Source: Gammaproteobacteria bacterium
Lineage (GTDB): Bacteria; Pseudomonadota; Gammaproteobacteria; SZUA-229
Length of the DNA stretch: 64,000 bases
Direction of reading: 5' to 3'
Assembly: GCA_029882395.1 (NCBI GenBank)
Contig: JAOUKT010000005.1
Span: forward strand, 1-64,000
Shown: positions 55,402-61,708 of the stretch, one piece after another
Position numbering within the stretch: position 1 is the stretch's first letter
Layout: each line of letters opens with the position of its first letter
Translations under genes and position numbers: made by a program
The notes under the pieces: generated by a model
What the model was told of the DNA's origin: nothing
Seen by the model: the letters and a program-made list of their open reading frames with translations, nothing else
The model's database searches: none

Positions 55402-56910
55402 ATGTGCGGTATATTAGGTGTTGTCGGCTTTAGTGCAGTGAATCAAATGCTCTATGATGGCCTGATCCTGTTACAACATCGAGGTCAGGATGCTGCCGGC
55501 ATCGTGACCTGTGAAGATCGAAAATTCTTTTTGCGCAAAGCCAATGGCCTGGTTCGTGATGTCTTTGAGGCAGAGCATATGATGCAATTACCCGGTAATA
55601 TGGGCATTGGTCATGTTCGTTATCCTACAGCGGGTTGTTCTTCATCGGCTGAGGCGCAACCTTTTTATGTGAACTCACCTTACGGCATTGCGCTTGCTCA
55701 TAATGGCAATTTAACCAATGCTGATGAGCTAAAAAAAGAACTGTACCGAACTGACCTGCGTCATATAAACACCAATTCTGACTCAGAGATTTTATTAAAT
55801 ATTCTGGCGCATGAATTACAGATCCAGGGCGGGCTTAAAGCCACGCAAGAACATGTTTTTAAAGCCGTTGAAGCCGTGCATAAACGCTGTAAAGGCGGCT
55901 ATGCTGTAGTTGCCACCATCGTCAAGAATGGCATTATTGCTTTCCGCGACCCCTACGGTATTCGCCCTGTCTGTTATGGAAAACGAGAAACAGAAAAAGG
56001 TACCGAATATATGGTCGCCTCAGAAAGTGTTGCCATGCAAGCACTGGGTTTTGAACTGGTGCGCGACCTGGCGCCAGGTGAAGCGATCTTTATCACCAAA
56101 GACGGTGAGTTTTATAATAAACAATGTGCTCAAAATCCAAAATTGTCGCCGTGTATTTTTGAATACGTTTATTTTGCCCGTCCAGATTCCATCATTGATG
56201 ATATTTCAGTTTATAAAGCCCGCCTAAGAATGGGTGAAGGGCTGGTCAATAAAATTAAACGGATTCGCCCCGATCATGATATCGACGTGGTTATCCCGAT
56301 TCCTGATACCAGTCGGACTTCAGCGCTGGAAGTCGCTTTTCACCTGGGGGTTAAATACCGTGAAGGTTTTATTAAAAACCGTTACATCGGTCGTACTTTT
56401 ATTATGCCCGGGCAACAGGAACGGAAAAAATCAGTACGCCAGAAATTGAATGCCGTTGAACTGGAGTTCAAGGGCAAAAATGTCATGCTGGTCGATGATT
56501 CGATTGTGCGAGGCACTACCTCAAAACAGATTATTCAGATGGCACGTGACGCCGGCGCGAATAAAGTCTATATGGCTTCAGCGGCACCGCCGGTACGCTT
56601 TCCGAATGTCTACGGTATTGACATGCCATCGGCGCAGGAGTTTGTTGCGCACGACCGGACTGAAGATGAAATTTGCAAAGAAATCGGTGCCGACTGGCTG
56701 GTCTATCAGGATCTTGAAGAGCTGGAACTGGCGGTAAGAAAAGGCAATAAAAACATTAAGATGTTTGATACATCCTGCTTTAACGCAGAATATGTTACTG
56801 GCGATGTTTCCCAAGAATACCTTGAGCACATTGATAGCATACGCAACGACAGAGCAAAAGAGTCGCGTGTGATGAATCCTGCCGTTATCGATTTGCACAA
56901 TAGTAATTAA
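55402..56910 (+). CDS. purF: Amidophosphoribosyltransferase
   Basis: A 502-residue first enzyme of purine synthesis. Cys2 after the initiator Met is the glutaminase nucleophile (MCGILGVVG, no propeptide). Further features are [21 protein letters not shown], the PRPP site [17 protein letters not shown] and [15 protein letters not shown]. Length matches E. coli PurF (505). Ends 2 bases before the next gene, which belongs to the envelope group, so the operon may extend. Confidence 0.98.
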
Positions 56911-56912
56911 TC

Positions 56913-57746
56913 ATGACAGTTTCCCGGATTATCACTTATTGTTTGTTATGTTTTTTCGGCCTCGGGCTGACAACCGTTGCGGCCGATGAAAAGCCTGAGC
57001 ATCAACAGCTTAAGCTGGGGCTTGAGCTTATCGAGCAGAAAAAATATCAGCAGGCAGAGAAATATTTTGTGCAGCTAAAGCAGCAGCATCCACAGCAAAT
57101 AGCCTATTTAAATAATCTGGCCGTGGCGCAAATGGCGCAGGGCAAAATGCAACAGGCGCTGGAAAATTTAAAGGCTGCATTAACAGCGGATAAATATATC
57201 GCCGTCTCACAAAATAATATGTCCAGTATTTATGCTTACATGGCATCGCAGGCCTATTCGAAAGCCCTGGACAAAGCCAGTACAAACACGCTGCCTCAAT
57301 TGGCGTCGATTACTGAGATAAAACCTGCGCTGACGGCTCAGCCGGCCACGGAAAAAGCAAAACCGCTGCCAGCCCTGCAAACGCAAGATGAGCTGAAGCG
57401 TCTCTTTGAAAAGAAAATGAATGTCTGGATTAAAGCCTGGAGTAAAGGCGATACACAGCTTTATCTTGCAAACTATTCAAAAAACTTCATGCCCGCAGCT
57501 AAGCTCAGTTATAAAGACTGGCTGGCATTGCGACGTTACCGTTTACGGCATTCAAAACAGGTAGAAGTCAGCTATAATCAGTTCGATATGTTTTTAAATG
57601 CAGCTAAAACCACCGCCATTGTTGAATTTGTTCAGCATTACAGAGCCGGAAAGTACAGGGATAAAGTAAGAAAGCAGCTGTACTGGCGTTTGGAAGGTGA
57701 TCGCTGGCTGATTACCCGTGAGCAAGTAACCGAAAAACTGAAATGA
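56913..57746 (+). CDS. Secreted TPR protein with a C-terminal NTF2-like domain
   Basis: A 277-residue exported protein. The signal peptide ends near TTVAA. A TPR region follows (about 29-115: LGLELIEQKKYQQAEKYFVQL, YLNNLAVAQMAQGK, ALENLKAALTADK). The last 120 residues (KKMNVWIKAWSKGDTQLYLA, SYKDWLALRRYRL, TTAIVEFVQHY, LYWRLEGDRWLITRE) match the C-terminal domain type of the next gene. It begins 2 bases after purF and overlaps the L,D-transpeptidase gene by 4 bases. I infer that it is a partner or regulator of that enzyme in the periplasm. Confidence 0.82.
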   Translation: MTVSRIITYCLLCFFGLGLTTVAADEKPEHQQLKLGLELIEQKKYQQAEKYFVQLKQQHPQQIAYLNNLAVAQMAQGKMQQALENLKAALTADKYIAVSQNNMSSIYAYMASQAYSKALDKASTNTLPQLASITEIKPALTAQPATEKAKPLPALQTQDELKRLFEKKMNVWIKAWSKGDTQLYLANYSKNFMPAAKLSYKDWLALRRYRLRHSKQVEVSYNQFDMFLNAAKTTAIVEFVQHYRAGKYRDKVRKQLYWRLEGDRWLITREQVTEKLK

Positions 57747-58948
57747 TACGATTTTTTCAAAAACAGTCTGTATTTTTATTGTTGCTGATCATCAGTGCGG
57801 GCACGTCCGCGCAATCAATTAAACAATCGCCAGAAGAGCAGCTGATTCTGGCGTTAACCTCGATAAAAGCCCAGAAACTAGATCAGGCCATGCATCAACT
57901 AGAGGCACTGGTGAACAATAAGCCTGATTTTAAACTGGCTCAGTTAGTCTATGCCGATGTCATGATGGCCAAAGCTCATGGCATAAATAAAGTCGGCGAA
58001 TCGTTAAAGCAGAATAAAATATTAGAAGGTTTTCTGGCAGAGGCAAGCAAGCGCTGGCATAGCGCGCAAAACCCGGTGAACGCCAAACTTTTACCGGCCG
58101 CCTTGTTAAGCCTGGATCAGGAATACCAGTATGCTGTTGTTGTTGAACTGAATAATTCCCGGCTGCACCTGTTTGAAAATGAAAACGGCATCCCTAAGGA
58201 AATTGATAATTATTATGTATCAATGGGTAAAAGCGGGCCCTACAAACAGTATGAAGGCGATAACCGAACGCCACTCGGTGTTTATTTTATTGAAAACTTT
58301 CTATCACCCAAGACCTTGCCTGATAAATACGGTGAAGGTGCCTTCCCCCTCAATTACCCGAATGTATGGGATGATCGTCTGGGTAAAACGGGCTATGGTA
58401 TCTGGCTGCATGGCACACCTCTGGATACTTTCAGCCGGCCGCCCAGAGACAGTGAAGGTTGTGTTGTATTGTCTAACGCGGATTTACAGACGGTGGGTGG
58501 TTATCTGCAGTTAAGGCGTACGCCGTTTGTTATCGCCGACAATATCAACTGGTTAGAAAAAGACAAATGGCAGTCACAGAAACAATATTTTACTCAGCTT
58601 ATTTCAAGCTGGCTGAAAGACTGGCAAAGTCTGGACACTAATCGTTATATCCAGCATTACTCAAAAACATTTCAAGCCGGGCCATCGAATTTTTTGAAAT
58701 GGTATTCGCATAAAAAACGCGTTAATAAAAATAAAAAATTCATTCAGGTTAAGACCGATGATTTAAGCATATTAAAACACCCTAAAGACGATATTCTGGT
58801 GGTGACTTTCAGGCAGCACTATAAAAGCGATAATTATTCATCGGTCAGCTATAAACGACAGTACTGGAAACAGGAAAAAGACGGTCAGTGGCGTATCATA
58901 TTTGAAGGCCGGGTGAGAGAGCCTGATCAGCTGCTTACCCAGTTATAA
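57743..58948 (+). CDS. L,D-transpeptidase (YkuD) with a C-terminal NTF2-like domain
   Basis: A 401-residue periplasmic enzyme. The signal peptide ends near TSA-QS. A helical region (about 28-125) precedes the YkuD domain (128-265). Its active site has His223 in WLHGTPLD and Cys240 in DSEGCVVLS, a variant of the usual SHGC motif. The tail (about 275-401) is an NTF2-like domain sharing SSWLKDWQSLDTNRYIQHYSK and VVTFRQHYKS with the preceding protein. The reaction is cross-linking of peptidoglycan stem peptides or attaching proteins to the wall. Start ATG 57743 overlaps the previous stop. Substrate is inferred, not shown. Confidence 0.9.
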   Translation: MIRFFQKQSVFLLLLIISAGTSAQSIKQSPEEQLILALTSIKAQKLDQAMHQLEALVNNKPDFKLAQLVYADVMMAKAHGINKVGESLKQNKILEGFLAEASKRWHSAQNPVNAKLLPAALLSLDQEYQYAVVVELNNSRLHLFENENGIPKEIDNYYVSMGKSGPYKQYEGDNRTPLGVYFIENFLSPKTLPDKYGEGAFPLNYPNVWDDRLGKTGYGIWLHGTPLDTFSRPPRDSEGCVVLSNADLQTVGGYLQLRRTPFVIADNINWLEKDKWQSQKQYFTQLISSWLKDWQSLDTNRYIQHYSKTFQAGPSNFLKWYSHKKRVNKNKKFIQVKTDDLSILKHPKDDILVVTFRQHYKSDNYSSVSYKRQYWKQEKDGQWRIIFEGRVREPDQLLTQL

Positions 58949-59008
58949 TCAGCTAGCAAAAGCCATTTCTGTGTTGGCTTCAGGATTGACGGTACTGTTG
59001 CCAGTGCA

Positions 59009-59911
59009 CTAATCAATATTAGACAGCTTTCTGCTGTCTGTATCAGCCTGTAATAAAGCCTTATTTTGCTTTGTGTGCTGCGCATTGTTTTTTAACCAGC
59101 GAACCAAATCTACCCAGATACTTGATATCTGCTGAGCGCTGGGCATTATGCCGGCATGGGGCAGCTCAATAGTAATCACCGGTTTTCCAAGTTGCAGGCC
59201 GGCATAGTTGCCCAGAGAGCCGGGATAGGTGCCGAGTAATTTTAAATGCAGAGAGCCCAGGTGTTTCGGTGCTTTATGTGGGCCGTCAAAGTCAAGAATA
59301 CCAAATGGTGCATGCACTGCAATGATCACATCGGGTTCAAATTCGGTGATGATATGGTCCAGCCATTGCGTTTCGGGTTCACTTAAAGGTGCCGGTCCGG
59401 GGTAACGGCGTTTATCTTTCCAGGTTCTTTTTGCCCAGTAATCAAGGCTGGCCTGTTTGTTTGCTCCGGGTGAAAAGTTGCGGTTCAGGTCAACGCCGTT
59501 ACCATTGGTTCGGCGAGAATGTTTTCTTAAAAGACCGTCCGGGTTTAACAGCGGAATAACTTTCCAGTGAAACAGGCCGCTGTGATATTTGTCGAGTGTG
59601 TTAAGCCATTTGAATAGAATGCTTACAGATGAATACTCATCACCATGTATGCCACCAATTAAAAGTACCTTTGCCTGGGGCTTGCGACGGGCCAGTGGTG
59701 GGTACTCTTTAATCAGCAGCGGTTTGTTCTGGTTGCTACGGTAACCCGAATCGATTAGCTGATTTGATAGGCATTGTTTGTTATAGACGCTGCTCAGCTT
59801 CTGGCTGATATGCTTGCAGGCTGTTTCAACCAGCGCCAGCGGCTCAGCCTGAGTGGCAGAACAATACAAAGAAAAGAGCAGAAAAGACAGAGTAAGTTTG
59901 AATGCAGGCAT
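59009..59911 (-). CDS. M14-family zinc carboxypeptidase, MpaA-like
   Basis: A 300-residue exported protein (signal peptide to about AEP). Zinc ligands are His89 and Glu92 in GGIHGDE and His200 in IAVHAPFG; the catalytic Glu249 is in TIELPHAG. LLNPDGLLRK and NGVDLNRNF are typical of the MpaA group, which splits the gamma-Glu-DAP bond of murein peptides. E. coli MpaA is cytoplasmic, so a signal peptide here suggests periplasmic action. It is on the opposite strand to the two L,D-transpeptidase genes beside it. Confidence 0.9.
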   Translation of the reverse strand: MPAFKLTLSFLLFSLYCSATQAEPLALVETACKHISQKLSSVYNKQCLSNQLIDSGYRSNQNKPLLIKEYPPLARRKPQAKVLLIGGIHGDEYSSVSILFKWLNTLDKYHSGLFHWKVIPLLNPDGLLRKHSRRTNGNGVDLNRNFSPGANKQASLDYWAKRTWKDKRRYPGPAPLSEPETQWLDHIITEFEPDVIIAVHAPFGILDFDGPHKAPKHLGSLHLKLLGTYPGSLGNYAGLQLGKPVITIELPHAGIMPSAQQISSIWVDLVRWLKNNAQHTKQNKALLQADTDSRKLSNID

Positions 59912-59985
59912 GGTATACAGGTATAGTGAGTTTACAGAGAATGAATATATTATAGACAGATTATAGACAAATTATAGACCGATAT

Positions 59986-60468
59986 ATGTGCTCAATTAAA
60001 GTGAATATCTCAAAACAGCAATTAAGGCTTTATGACCGGCATAATCAGCTGATAGCAGAGTATCCTGTTTCTACCTCAAAATATGGCATAGGCAATCAGC
60101 AGGGTAGTTTTAAGACACCATTGGGGCACCATCAGATATGTGAAAAAATCGGTGACGATGAAGCCATGGATGAGGTATTTATCGGCCGCAAACCTCAGGG
60201 CAGGTTATCTGTCTTAAAACAACAATCCATCGATTTGCCAGAAGATATCATCACAGCAAGAATCCTGAGATTACGCGGCCAGCAGCCAGGGCTAAACCAG
60301 GGAGAGGGTATCGATTCCTTTGAGCGATATATCTACATTCACGGTACTGCCGATGAAATCAATATTTCTAAACCGGTTTCACACGGCTGTATTCGAATGC
60401 GTAATGAGGATATTGTTAAGCTCTATGCAAAAGTTGAAGTCAATACCGATGTATGGATTGAAGACTGA
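59986..60468 (+). CDS. Small L,D-transpeptidase-family protein (YkuD)
   Basis: A 160-residue YkuD domain protein with active-site residues His119 (YIHGT), His133 and Cys135 in SHGCIRM. It has no visible signal peptide: the sequence opens at once with MCSIKVNISKQQLRLYD, the first strand of the domain. It may be cytoplasmic or exported by another route. Cytoplasmic YkuD relatives can act as L,D-carboxypeptidase-like or amino-acid-transfer enzymes. It lies 75 bases after the divergent carboxypeptidase gene and 52 bases before metZ. Confidence 0.9.
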   Translation: MCSIKVNISKQQLRLYDRHNQLIAEYPVSTSKYGIGNQQGSFKTPLGHHQICEKIGDDEAMDEVFIGRKPQGRLSVLKQQSIDLPEDIITARILRLRGQQPGLNQGEGIDSFERYIYIHGTADEINISKPVSHGCIRMRNEDIVKLYAKVEVNTDVWIED

Positions 60469-60520: not shown

Positions 60521-61708
60521 ATGAGTTACGAGTTTGACGATGAAACCGGTTTTGAAACACTGGCAATAAGAGCAGGTCACGAGCGAACCAACGAAGGCGA
60601 GCATGCAGAGGCGATATTTCCAACCTCGAGTTATGTCTTTGCCTCAGCCGCGGAAGCTGCTGCACGGTTTTCAGGTGCTGAGCCAGGTAATATTTACTCG
60701 CGCTTTACTAATCCGACTGTCAGGACCTTTGAAAAACGCCTGGCTGCGCTTGAAGGCGCCGAGAGATGTCTGGCAACGTCATCAGGCATGGCTGCTATTA
60801 CCGCCACCTTTCTGGGTATTTTGAAATCGGGAGATCATATTATCTCGTCCAGCAGTATTTTTGGCGTCACCAATGTACTGATGGAAAATTTCTTAAAAAA
60901 ACTCAACATAGAAGTGACCTATGTTGACCTGGTAGATAATGCTTCATGGGAAAATGCAATTCAGGAAAACACACGCATACTGTTTCTTGAAACACCCTCC
61001 AATCCACTGGGTGATATTGCCGATATTCGTGCACTGGCTGATCTGGCGCATGACAATGATGCCTTACTGGTTGTTGATAACGCCTTATGTACCCCGGCAT
61101 TACAGCAGCCGATTAAATTCGGGGCTGATATTGTTATTCACTCAGCAACAAAATTTATTGATGGCCAGGGGCGCTGTGTGGGGGGAGCCGTACTCGGCAC
61201 CGAAGCAATAGTGGGCACCGATGTTTTTGCATTTTTAAGAACAGCCGGTCCTACTATGAGTCCGTTTAATGCGTGGGTGTTTTTGAAGGGACTGGAAACA
61301 CTCAAATTAAGAATGGATGCTCACGGTGTCAATGCCCTTAAAATTGCTAAATGGTTACAGCAACAGCCTAATGTCGTAAAAGTACATTACTGTGGTCTGG
61401 AATCGCATATGCAATACCGTCTTGCACAAAAGCAGCAGTCAGGTTTTGGCGGCATTGTATCGTTTGAAATGAAAGATAAAGAAGCCGCATGGAAAGTCAT
61501 TGACGCAACAAAGATGCTCTCCATAACCGGTAATTTAGGTGATACCAGAACCACGATCACACACCCTGCGACAACAACACACGGTCGATTAACACCCGAG
61601 TTGCAGGTTGCAGCAGGCATCAAAGAAGGCCTGATTCGATTATCGATTGGACTCGAGGATATCGAAGATATTAAAGCTGACTTGTCGCTCGGTTTTGAGT
61701 CAGTCTGA
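60521..61708 (+). CDS. metZ: O-succinylhomoserine sulfhydrylase
   Basis: A 395-residue PLP enzyme of the Cys/Met metabolism family that makes homocysteine directly from O-succinylhomoserine and sulfide. The PLP lysine is Lys211 in SATKFIDGQGR. The MetZ-type N-terminus FETLAIRAGHERTNEGEHAEAI, SRFTNPTVRTFEKRLA, and LSIGLEDIEDIKADL at the end support MetZ over cystathionine gamma-synthase. It follows purF at a short distance in pseudomonads; here envelope genes lie between. Confidence 0.95.
   Translation: MSYEFDDETGFETLAIRAGHERTNEGEHAEAIFPTSSYVFASAAEAAARFSGAEPGNIYSRFTNPTVRTFEKRLAALEGAERCLATSSGMAAITATFLGILKSGDHIISSSSIFGVTNVLMENFLKKLNIEVTYVDLVDNASWENAIQENTRILFLETPSNPLGDIADIRALADLAHDNDALLVVDNALCTPALQQPIKFGADIVIHSATKFIDGQGRCVGGAVLGTEAIVGTDVFAFLRTAGPTMSPFNAWVFLKGLETLKLRMDAHGVNALKIAKWLQQQPNVVKVHYCGLESHMQYRLAQKQQSGFGGIVSFEMKDKEAAWKVIDATKMLSITGNLGDTRTTITHPATTTHGRLTPELQVAAGIKEGLIRLSIGLEDIEDIKADLSLGFESV

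Follow-up and report, generated by a model that had tools for sequence, protein, structure and literature searches.

Between purF and metZ, the 64,000-nucleotide stretch of gammaproteobacterial DNA analyzed here (the window, to which all coordinates refer) carries four open reading frames (ORFs), P0001 to P0004. The first two encode exported proteins, a TPR protein (P0001) and a YkuD enzyme (P0002), that end in the same type of NTF2-like domain. The pair is old and conserved. P0002 is most likely an L,D-carboxypeptidase, and it probably works with P0001 as its partner. On balance, we consider it probable that the two are the subunits of a peptidoglycan-trimming system with two pockets, one that elaborates on the Csd6/Csd4 machinery setting the shape of spiral and curved bacteria.

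The P0002 Enzyme

P0002 (401 residues; 57743..58948, + strand) is of the Csd6/Pgp2/Bd1075 type. Its YkuD catalytic domain spans residues 130–264 (58130..58534, +; PF03734 at 5.6e-17), and alignments place the catalytic residues at His223 and Cys240. Among solved structures, its matches are Bd1075 of Bdellovibrio bacteriovorus (7o21; 4.8e-46), Pgp2 of Campylobacter jejuni (8.8e-24), and Csd6 of Helicobacter pylori (2.6e-23). The AlphaFold2 model (mean predicted local distance difference test score, pLDDT, 92.3; predicted template modeling score, pTM, 0.90) aligns with Bd1075 over 263 residues, spanning both domains, with a root-mean-square deviation of 1.9 and 33% identity. Single structural alignments covering the catalytic and NTF2 domains together reach Z scores of 31.5 (Bd1075), 27.7, and 26.3.

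The HG and GC motifs of P0002 align to H157/G158 and C174 of Pgp2 and are invariant in alignments of 23 and 47 rows. The residue two positions after the catalytic Cys (Cys+2) is Val242, and none of the 23 relatives in the printed alignment has Arg there. According to passages of PMC8938487, Cys+2 is Arg in most L,D-transpeptidases, Val in Bd1075, and Ala in Csd6 and Pgp2. P0002 also matches Pgp2 E107, Y130, and W155, the residues that a passage of PMC8038945 describes as contacting D-alanine (D-Ala) in the Csd6 site. Bd1075, Pgp2, and Csd6 all appear in the relevant passages of PMC8938487, PMC4599014, and PMC8038945 as L,D-carboxypeptidases that convert tetrapeptides to tripeptides. Because the nearest solved relatives are carboxypeptidases, Cys+2 is Val, and the Glu/Tyr/Trp contacts to D-Ala are kept, the sequence points to P0002 being most likely an L,D-carboxypeptidase rather than a transpeptidase. 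Thus, the label of L,D-transpeptidase that an earlier note on this DNA had given to P0002 probably names the wrong activity.

Bd1075 is the closest solved relative, sharing with P0002 the YkuD carboxypeptidase domain, the C-terminal NTF2 domain, and the Val at Cys+2. Passages of PMC8938487 report that its NTF2 domain guides Bd1075 to the convex face of the cell, that bd1075 is monocistronic, and that its product lacks an N-terminal helical domain, whereas P0002 begins with a helical region and has a TPR-NTF2 protein encoded next to it. Csd6 and Pgp2 have a three-part plan of N-terminal helices, carboxypeptidase domain, and NTF2 pocket, which P0002 appears to share, and they act before an M14/M99 peptidase, Csd4 or Pgp1. 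They homodimerize via the N-terminal helices, a behavior shown for Csd6 and expected for Pgp2 in passages of PMC4599014 and PMC8038945; the passages on these two enzymes do not mention a separate NTF2 partner.

The helical region of P0002 covers about residues 30–109 (57830..58069, +) and contains TPR-like hairpins scored weakly by Pfam. Mature residues 6–85 are helices in the model, and sequence and structure alignments to relatives begin after them. This region is a possible docking part.

Two NTF2-like Domains, Two Pockets

The NTF2-like domains, defined by Pfam and pocket mapping, lie at residues 167–271 of P0001 (57411..57725, +) and residues 285–388 of P0002 (58595..58906, +). The patterns quoted in the earlier note are literally present in both proteins, as WIKAWSKGDTQLYLANYSK and IVEFVQHY in P0001 and as WLKDWQSLDTNRYIQHYSK and VVTFRQHY in P0002. 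Its claim of a common domain type holds as well: the two tails align in BLASTP with an E value of 5e-12, a P0002 query against the whole genome finds the P0001 tail at 1.1e-9, and both match PF24125, Cds6_C (7.1e-16 for P0001, 5.2e-24 for P0002). This Pfam family evidently represents the NTF2-like domain at the C-terminus of Csd6.

Passages of PMC8038945 report that the NTF2 pocket of Pgp2 binds peptidoglycan and that changing its residues straightens C. jejuni cells wholly or partly. At the positions of Pgp2 Y233, F242, K257, K307, and E324, P0002 has Y, F, K, K, and E, and P0001 has Y, F, R, K, and E. That is, P0002 has a Lys-type pocket, and P0001 has Arg at the Lys257 position. The same division runs through 138 YkuD-type and 131 TPR-type rows, which are related and do not represent independent events. 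The K257 position is Lys in 130/138 YkuD-type rows and Arg in 129/131 TPR-type rows. Lys at K307 is found in 134 and in all 131, respectively, Glu at E324 in every row of both types, and Tyr at Y233 in 120 and 130. Since the homologous Pgp2 pocket binds peptidoglycan and the residues are kept in both proteins, ligand binding or anchoring is the favored role for the tails. The earlier note had offered anchoring, dimerization, or ligand binding; dimerization survives as a rival reading, weighed below.

In a tree of 132 NTF2 domains built from a short alignment, all 58 YkuD-type rows fall to the same side of a branch with a Shimodaira–Hasegawa-like approximate likelihood ratio (SH-aLRT) support of 85, and the 52 TPR-type rows cluster with 12 other non-YkuD carriers (SH-aLRT 99). 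Mean identity between the two types is 24% within a locus and 23% between loci. Because the types sit on separate branches, the pair is not a recent local copy. A recent local duplication was thus considered and rejected on the deep split of the types and on an identity that is scarcely higher within loci than between them, the YkuD-side support being only 85 on a short alignment. We read the two lines as two specialized wall-binding pockets rather than as decay, judging by their residues. The NTF2 distance matrices of the two proteins correlate with a Spearman coefficient of 0.30 over 40 loci, a value expected for neighboring genes and not evidence of contact.

The TPR Partner

P0001 (277 residues; 56913..57746, +) was delimited by its ORF, Pfam, and an AlphaFold2 model. 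In the model (mean pLDDT 90.5; pTM 0.65), five helices of TPR type lead through a linker of low confidence into the NTF2 domain. Fold likeness between the two tails had been set beforehand as a check, and a Foldseek search with the P0001 model returns Bd1075 first and Csd6 next, in both cases through the NTF2 domains. All 48 members of the P0001-family alignment carry PF24125, and 45 of the 48 carry TPR_16. No named family was found for the TPR-NTF2 protein. A literature search of open-licence papers turned up those on Csd6, Pgp2, and Bd1075 and no study of a TPR-NTF2 partner, which is weak evidence of novelty.

The two ORFs overlap by 4 bases (57743–57746), as the earlier note had said. P0001 starts 2 bases past the stop of purF (55402..56910, +), which forms the left flank of the insertion in the ORF list and locus comparison. 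Thus, the pair is the end of an accD-folC-dedD-cvpA-purF run.

Conservation of the Pair

The expectation that relatives keep the pair was confirmed in three samples. A scan of named genomes with the P0002-family alignment took the best-scoring 80 of 584 relatives and so favors close kin. An NTF2 protein without a YkuD domain lies directly upstream, on the same strand, in 79 of these 80; the remaining locus (L174) is cut by the contig start. The hosts are gammaproteobacteria and betaproteobacteria, the latter including Azoarcus, Aromatoleum, Dechloromonas, Zoogloea, and Methyloversatilis.

Of 370 genomes sampled evenly across the window's class, 63 contain PF24125. A YkuD locus is present in 58, two (L129 and L138) are without one, and three (G070, G225, and G280) were left out. 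A TPR partner lies directly upstream in 50 of the 58, 45 times with an NTF2 domain and five times without a recognized one. By eye, those five partners (L100, L101, L121, L130, and L137) are TPR only or have a degraded tail. Among 20 loci picked by hand, and not at random, from a phylum-wide search, all 14 YkuD loci have the partner. In the class sample, the pair occurs at different chromosomal places and under more than 20 family codes. The genes being kept side by side across many families, the enzyme probably has a working partner.

At two of these loci, the YkuD protein has, by eye, a lipobox-like signal (L100:6553-8034, +, and L130:5638-7062, +), and the upstream partner there is TPR only. 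At L157, L162, L179, L181, L183, and other betaproteobacterial loci, the order is pair, metZ, purF, cvpA. The pair is there on the side of metZ away from purF, so its proximity to metZ-purF recurs outside the window's family.

Enzymes without Helices and Other Carriers of the Domain

Loci that depart from the usual plan bear on the role of the helices. Three YkuD proteins (L120, L124, and L125) have two tandem NTF2 domains and neither N-terminal helices nor a TPR partner; here two pockets come about by a different route. The L124 enzyme is adjacent to a Csd4-type M99 peptidase (4wck, 3.7e-30; PF17033, 1.4e-37). Over 58 loci, the table of enzyme helices against partner presence reads 49/1/3/5 (Fisher p 7e-5, with related rows and kinship uncorrected). 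Three of the five cases lacking both helices and partner are one tandem-NTF2 group, and among the three counted as having helices, L073 fits the helix profile weakly. Elsewhere, L228, L229, L237, and L247 have the partner and are missed by the helix profile; by eye, L228, L237, and L247 are helical and divergent. It is suggestive that enzymes without N-terminal helices are usually without the partner. The variants hint that both NTF2 domains work for a single enzyme, with the helices as a docking part.

By eye, a neighboring gene at L125 looks like the M99 gene of L124, and the upstream gene at L120 and L125 resembles recN.

The Cds6_C domain looks portable and perhaps tethers other envelope proteins to the wall. 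It is found at the C-terminus of SurA-like peptidyl-prolyl isomerases (L230:6108-7832, −; L231:5649-7640, −) and of a TolC-like outer membrane efflux protein (OEP; L240:6151-8196, −). Other carriers are a Sel1+SPOR+NTF2 protein (L132:5904-7205, +), a TPR protein with two NTF2 domains (L131:6789-8291, −), and a DctM-type frame (L233:3829-6567, +). NTF2 proteins also lie directly behind a same-strand M14 gene (L226:931-2169, +; L227:1171-2421, −). This arrangement is a second tie of this type of peptidase to Cds6_C; the protein at L226 has a SPOR domain in addition.

The Third Gene and the Resident elsL

P0003 (59009..59911, −) encodes an MpaA-like M14 peptidase with a signal peptide by inspection. 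Its closest solved structures are MpaA-like (5hxd, 1.2e-15; 4axv, 4.7e-10), and its Pfam matches are M14, AstE_AspA, and DUF2817, without PF17033 (M99). MpaA, the murein tripeptide amidase, is cytoplasmic; P0003 differs in its signal peptide. The description of an exported MpaA-like peptidase next to the pair was right in kind. Its gene, however, lies on the minus strand and converges on the pair; it is thus outside the pair's operon, and the four genes do not make up a single one. A convergent M14 gene just past the pair recurs in 27/58 class-sample loci and 21/80 named loci; it occurs in several families, mostly away from purF-metZ. The presumed step is that of the M99 peptidases Csd4 and Pgp1, tripeptide to dipeptide.

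P0004 (160 residues; 59986..60468, +) is a short YkuD protein, signal-less as the earlier note had it. Its best family match is the wall-recycling L,D-carboxypeptidase ElsL, likewise signal-less (NF040925, 6.4e-41), at 139.8 bits, below the curated cut-off of 270. The right flank is metZ (60521..61708, +), again from the ORF list and locus comparison. In the window's genome (94.6% complete), P0002 and P0004 are the only YkuD genes found, and P0003 is the only M14 gene found.

Twenty-eight genomes of the family, each at least 85% complete, were compared. Eleven have exactly two Cds6_C domains; the same 11 have P0003 and a YkuD protein of about 400 residues at that place, and the other 17 have neither the domains nor P0003. 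Ten loci without the trio of pair and M14 gene were fetched, and eight of them have the order purF-elsL-metZ; of the other two, L262 shows elsL-metZ only and L257 is not syntenic. Since trio-less relatives keep purF-elsL-metZ, the insertion is the trio, and an elsL-like gene was already present. The idea of a peptidoglycan gene group inserted between purF and metZ stands for the trio and falls for P0004, the resident elsL-like gene, and a single conserved four-gene cluster is rejected on the same ground. YkuD frames of 524–564 residues were seen in 6/17 trio-less family genomes (G014, G015, G020, G022, G023, and G031) and in 0/11 with the trio.

Proposed Mechanism and Alternatives

We propose that P0002, once exported, would remove the last D-Ala from tetrapeptide stems with its YkuD domain (tetra to tri) and that its C-terminal NTF2 pocket would, by homology, hold it on peptidoglycan. 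P0001 would be a dedicated, non-catalytic partner with a TPR module and a second, anciently diverged NTF2 pocket, in which Lys has given way to Arg. Together, the two would probably form a single working unit that binds the wall through two pockets. The TPR module may contact the enzyme, perhaps at its N-terminal helices, or another envelope protein, and P0001 may place or gate trimming on the sacculus. Passages of PMC8038945 describe Csd4 and Pgp1 (M14/M99) as taking meso-diaminopimelic acid (meso-DAP) off the tripeptide in partnership with Csd6 and Pgp2. Because these relatives work with such a peptidase, we infer a periplasmic tetra-tri-di trimming line in which P0003, given its MpaA-like homology and signal peptide, would remove meso-DAP (tri to di). 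The wall would locally lose stems available for cross-linking, which would give control over its mechanics and possibly over cell curvature. Homology, gene order, joint inheritance, and conservation of the pockets are shown; that the two proteins touch, that they are active as described, and that they influence cell shape are inferred.

Several observations weigh against this proposal. Eight of the 58 class-sample YkuD loci lack the partner, and five partners lack a recognized NTF2 domain. At L118, L122, L123, and L128, it is the enzyme's NTF2 domain that is not recognized and the partner's that is; the reverse holds at L100, L101, L130, and L137. Thus, the two pockets are not always kept. P0001–P0002 covariation (151 pairs, effective number 72) gave no usable signal; it is uninformative on an interface, because the top pairs mostly fall in the P0002 signal peptide. 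The M14 gene is absent from most betaproteobacterial loci among the 80. P0003 scores 77.7 bits against the MpaA equivalog NF007897, below the curated cut-off of 157, and its identification as a Csd4 orthologue was rejected, as it is M14 and not M99 and Csd4 is not among its solved-structure matches. Gain or loss of the trio as a unit within the family may be a single event. The shape effect is the weakest step, because the named hosts include ordinary rods, namely Azoarcus, Dechloromonas, and Zoogloea, and a helical or strongly curved shape is therefore not the general outcome.

Other explanations have to be set beside the two-subunit system. The TPR-NTF2 protein might act alone, tethering another TPR client or envelope machine to peptidoglycan, with adjacency to the enzyme gene reflecting shared regulation only. 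The fusions of Cds6_C to SurA, TolC-like OEP, SPOR, and Sel1 proteins fit a general wall anchor without a carboxypeptidase, and covariation showed no interface. However, order and orientation are near-fixed across the 79/80 named loci and the many family codes and chromosomal places, and the pair is gained or lost together, so we regard independent action as rather unlikely. NTF2 folds often dimerize, and the NTF2 and CaMKII hub domains assemble. The two NTF2 domains might mainly pair with each other, in a heterodimer or a larger hub, and their role would then be assembly and not wall binding. CaMKII hub structures are indeed among the structural matches of the P0001 model, and Csd6 is dimeric according to a passage of PMC4599014, although via its N-terminal helices. 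Yet the constant residues are those of the peptidoglycan pocket, and Pgp2 and Bd1075 use the domain as a binding or targeting site in passages of PMC8038945 and PMC8938487; we hold a hub to be unlikely.

It is more doubtful still that P0002, tuned by its partner, is a genuine L,D-transpeptidase or acts like DpaA to release lipoprotein from the wall. In favor of this, the domain is YkuD by Pfam, the structural matches of P0002 include DpaA (Z 14.5), and P0002 and P0004 are the only YkuD proteins found in the genome. On the other side, the closest relatives of P0002 are by far proven L,D-carboxypeptidases, and the Arg at Cys+2 is missing from the printed alignment.

The two-subunit system can be taken further, as a tentative proposal that we would not yet bet on. 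In many Proteobacteria, the L,D-carboxypeptidases of Csd6 type may require the TPR-NTF2 protein as an obligate subunit. With its Arg-type pocket, the complex would sense two stems or strands a fixed distance apart before it cuts, which would determine where the wall is softened. If true, this would offer a molecular way into the lateral targeting of such enzymes, which is so far unexplained.

Enzymes built on this plan are common in gamma- and betaproteobacteria, and most often a partner bears the binding domain a second time. Should P0001-type partners place or gate the enzyme, a TPR gene for which no study was found would gain a function, and the targeting of such enzymes could be tested in named hosts that can be cultured, Aromatoleum and Dechloromonas among them.

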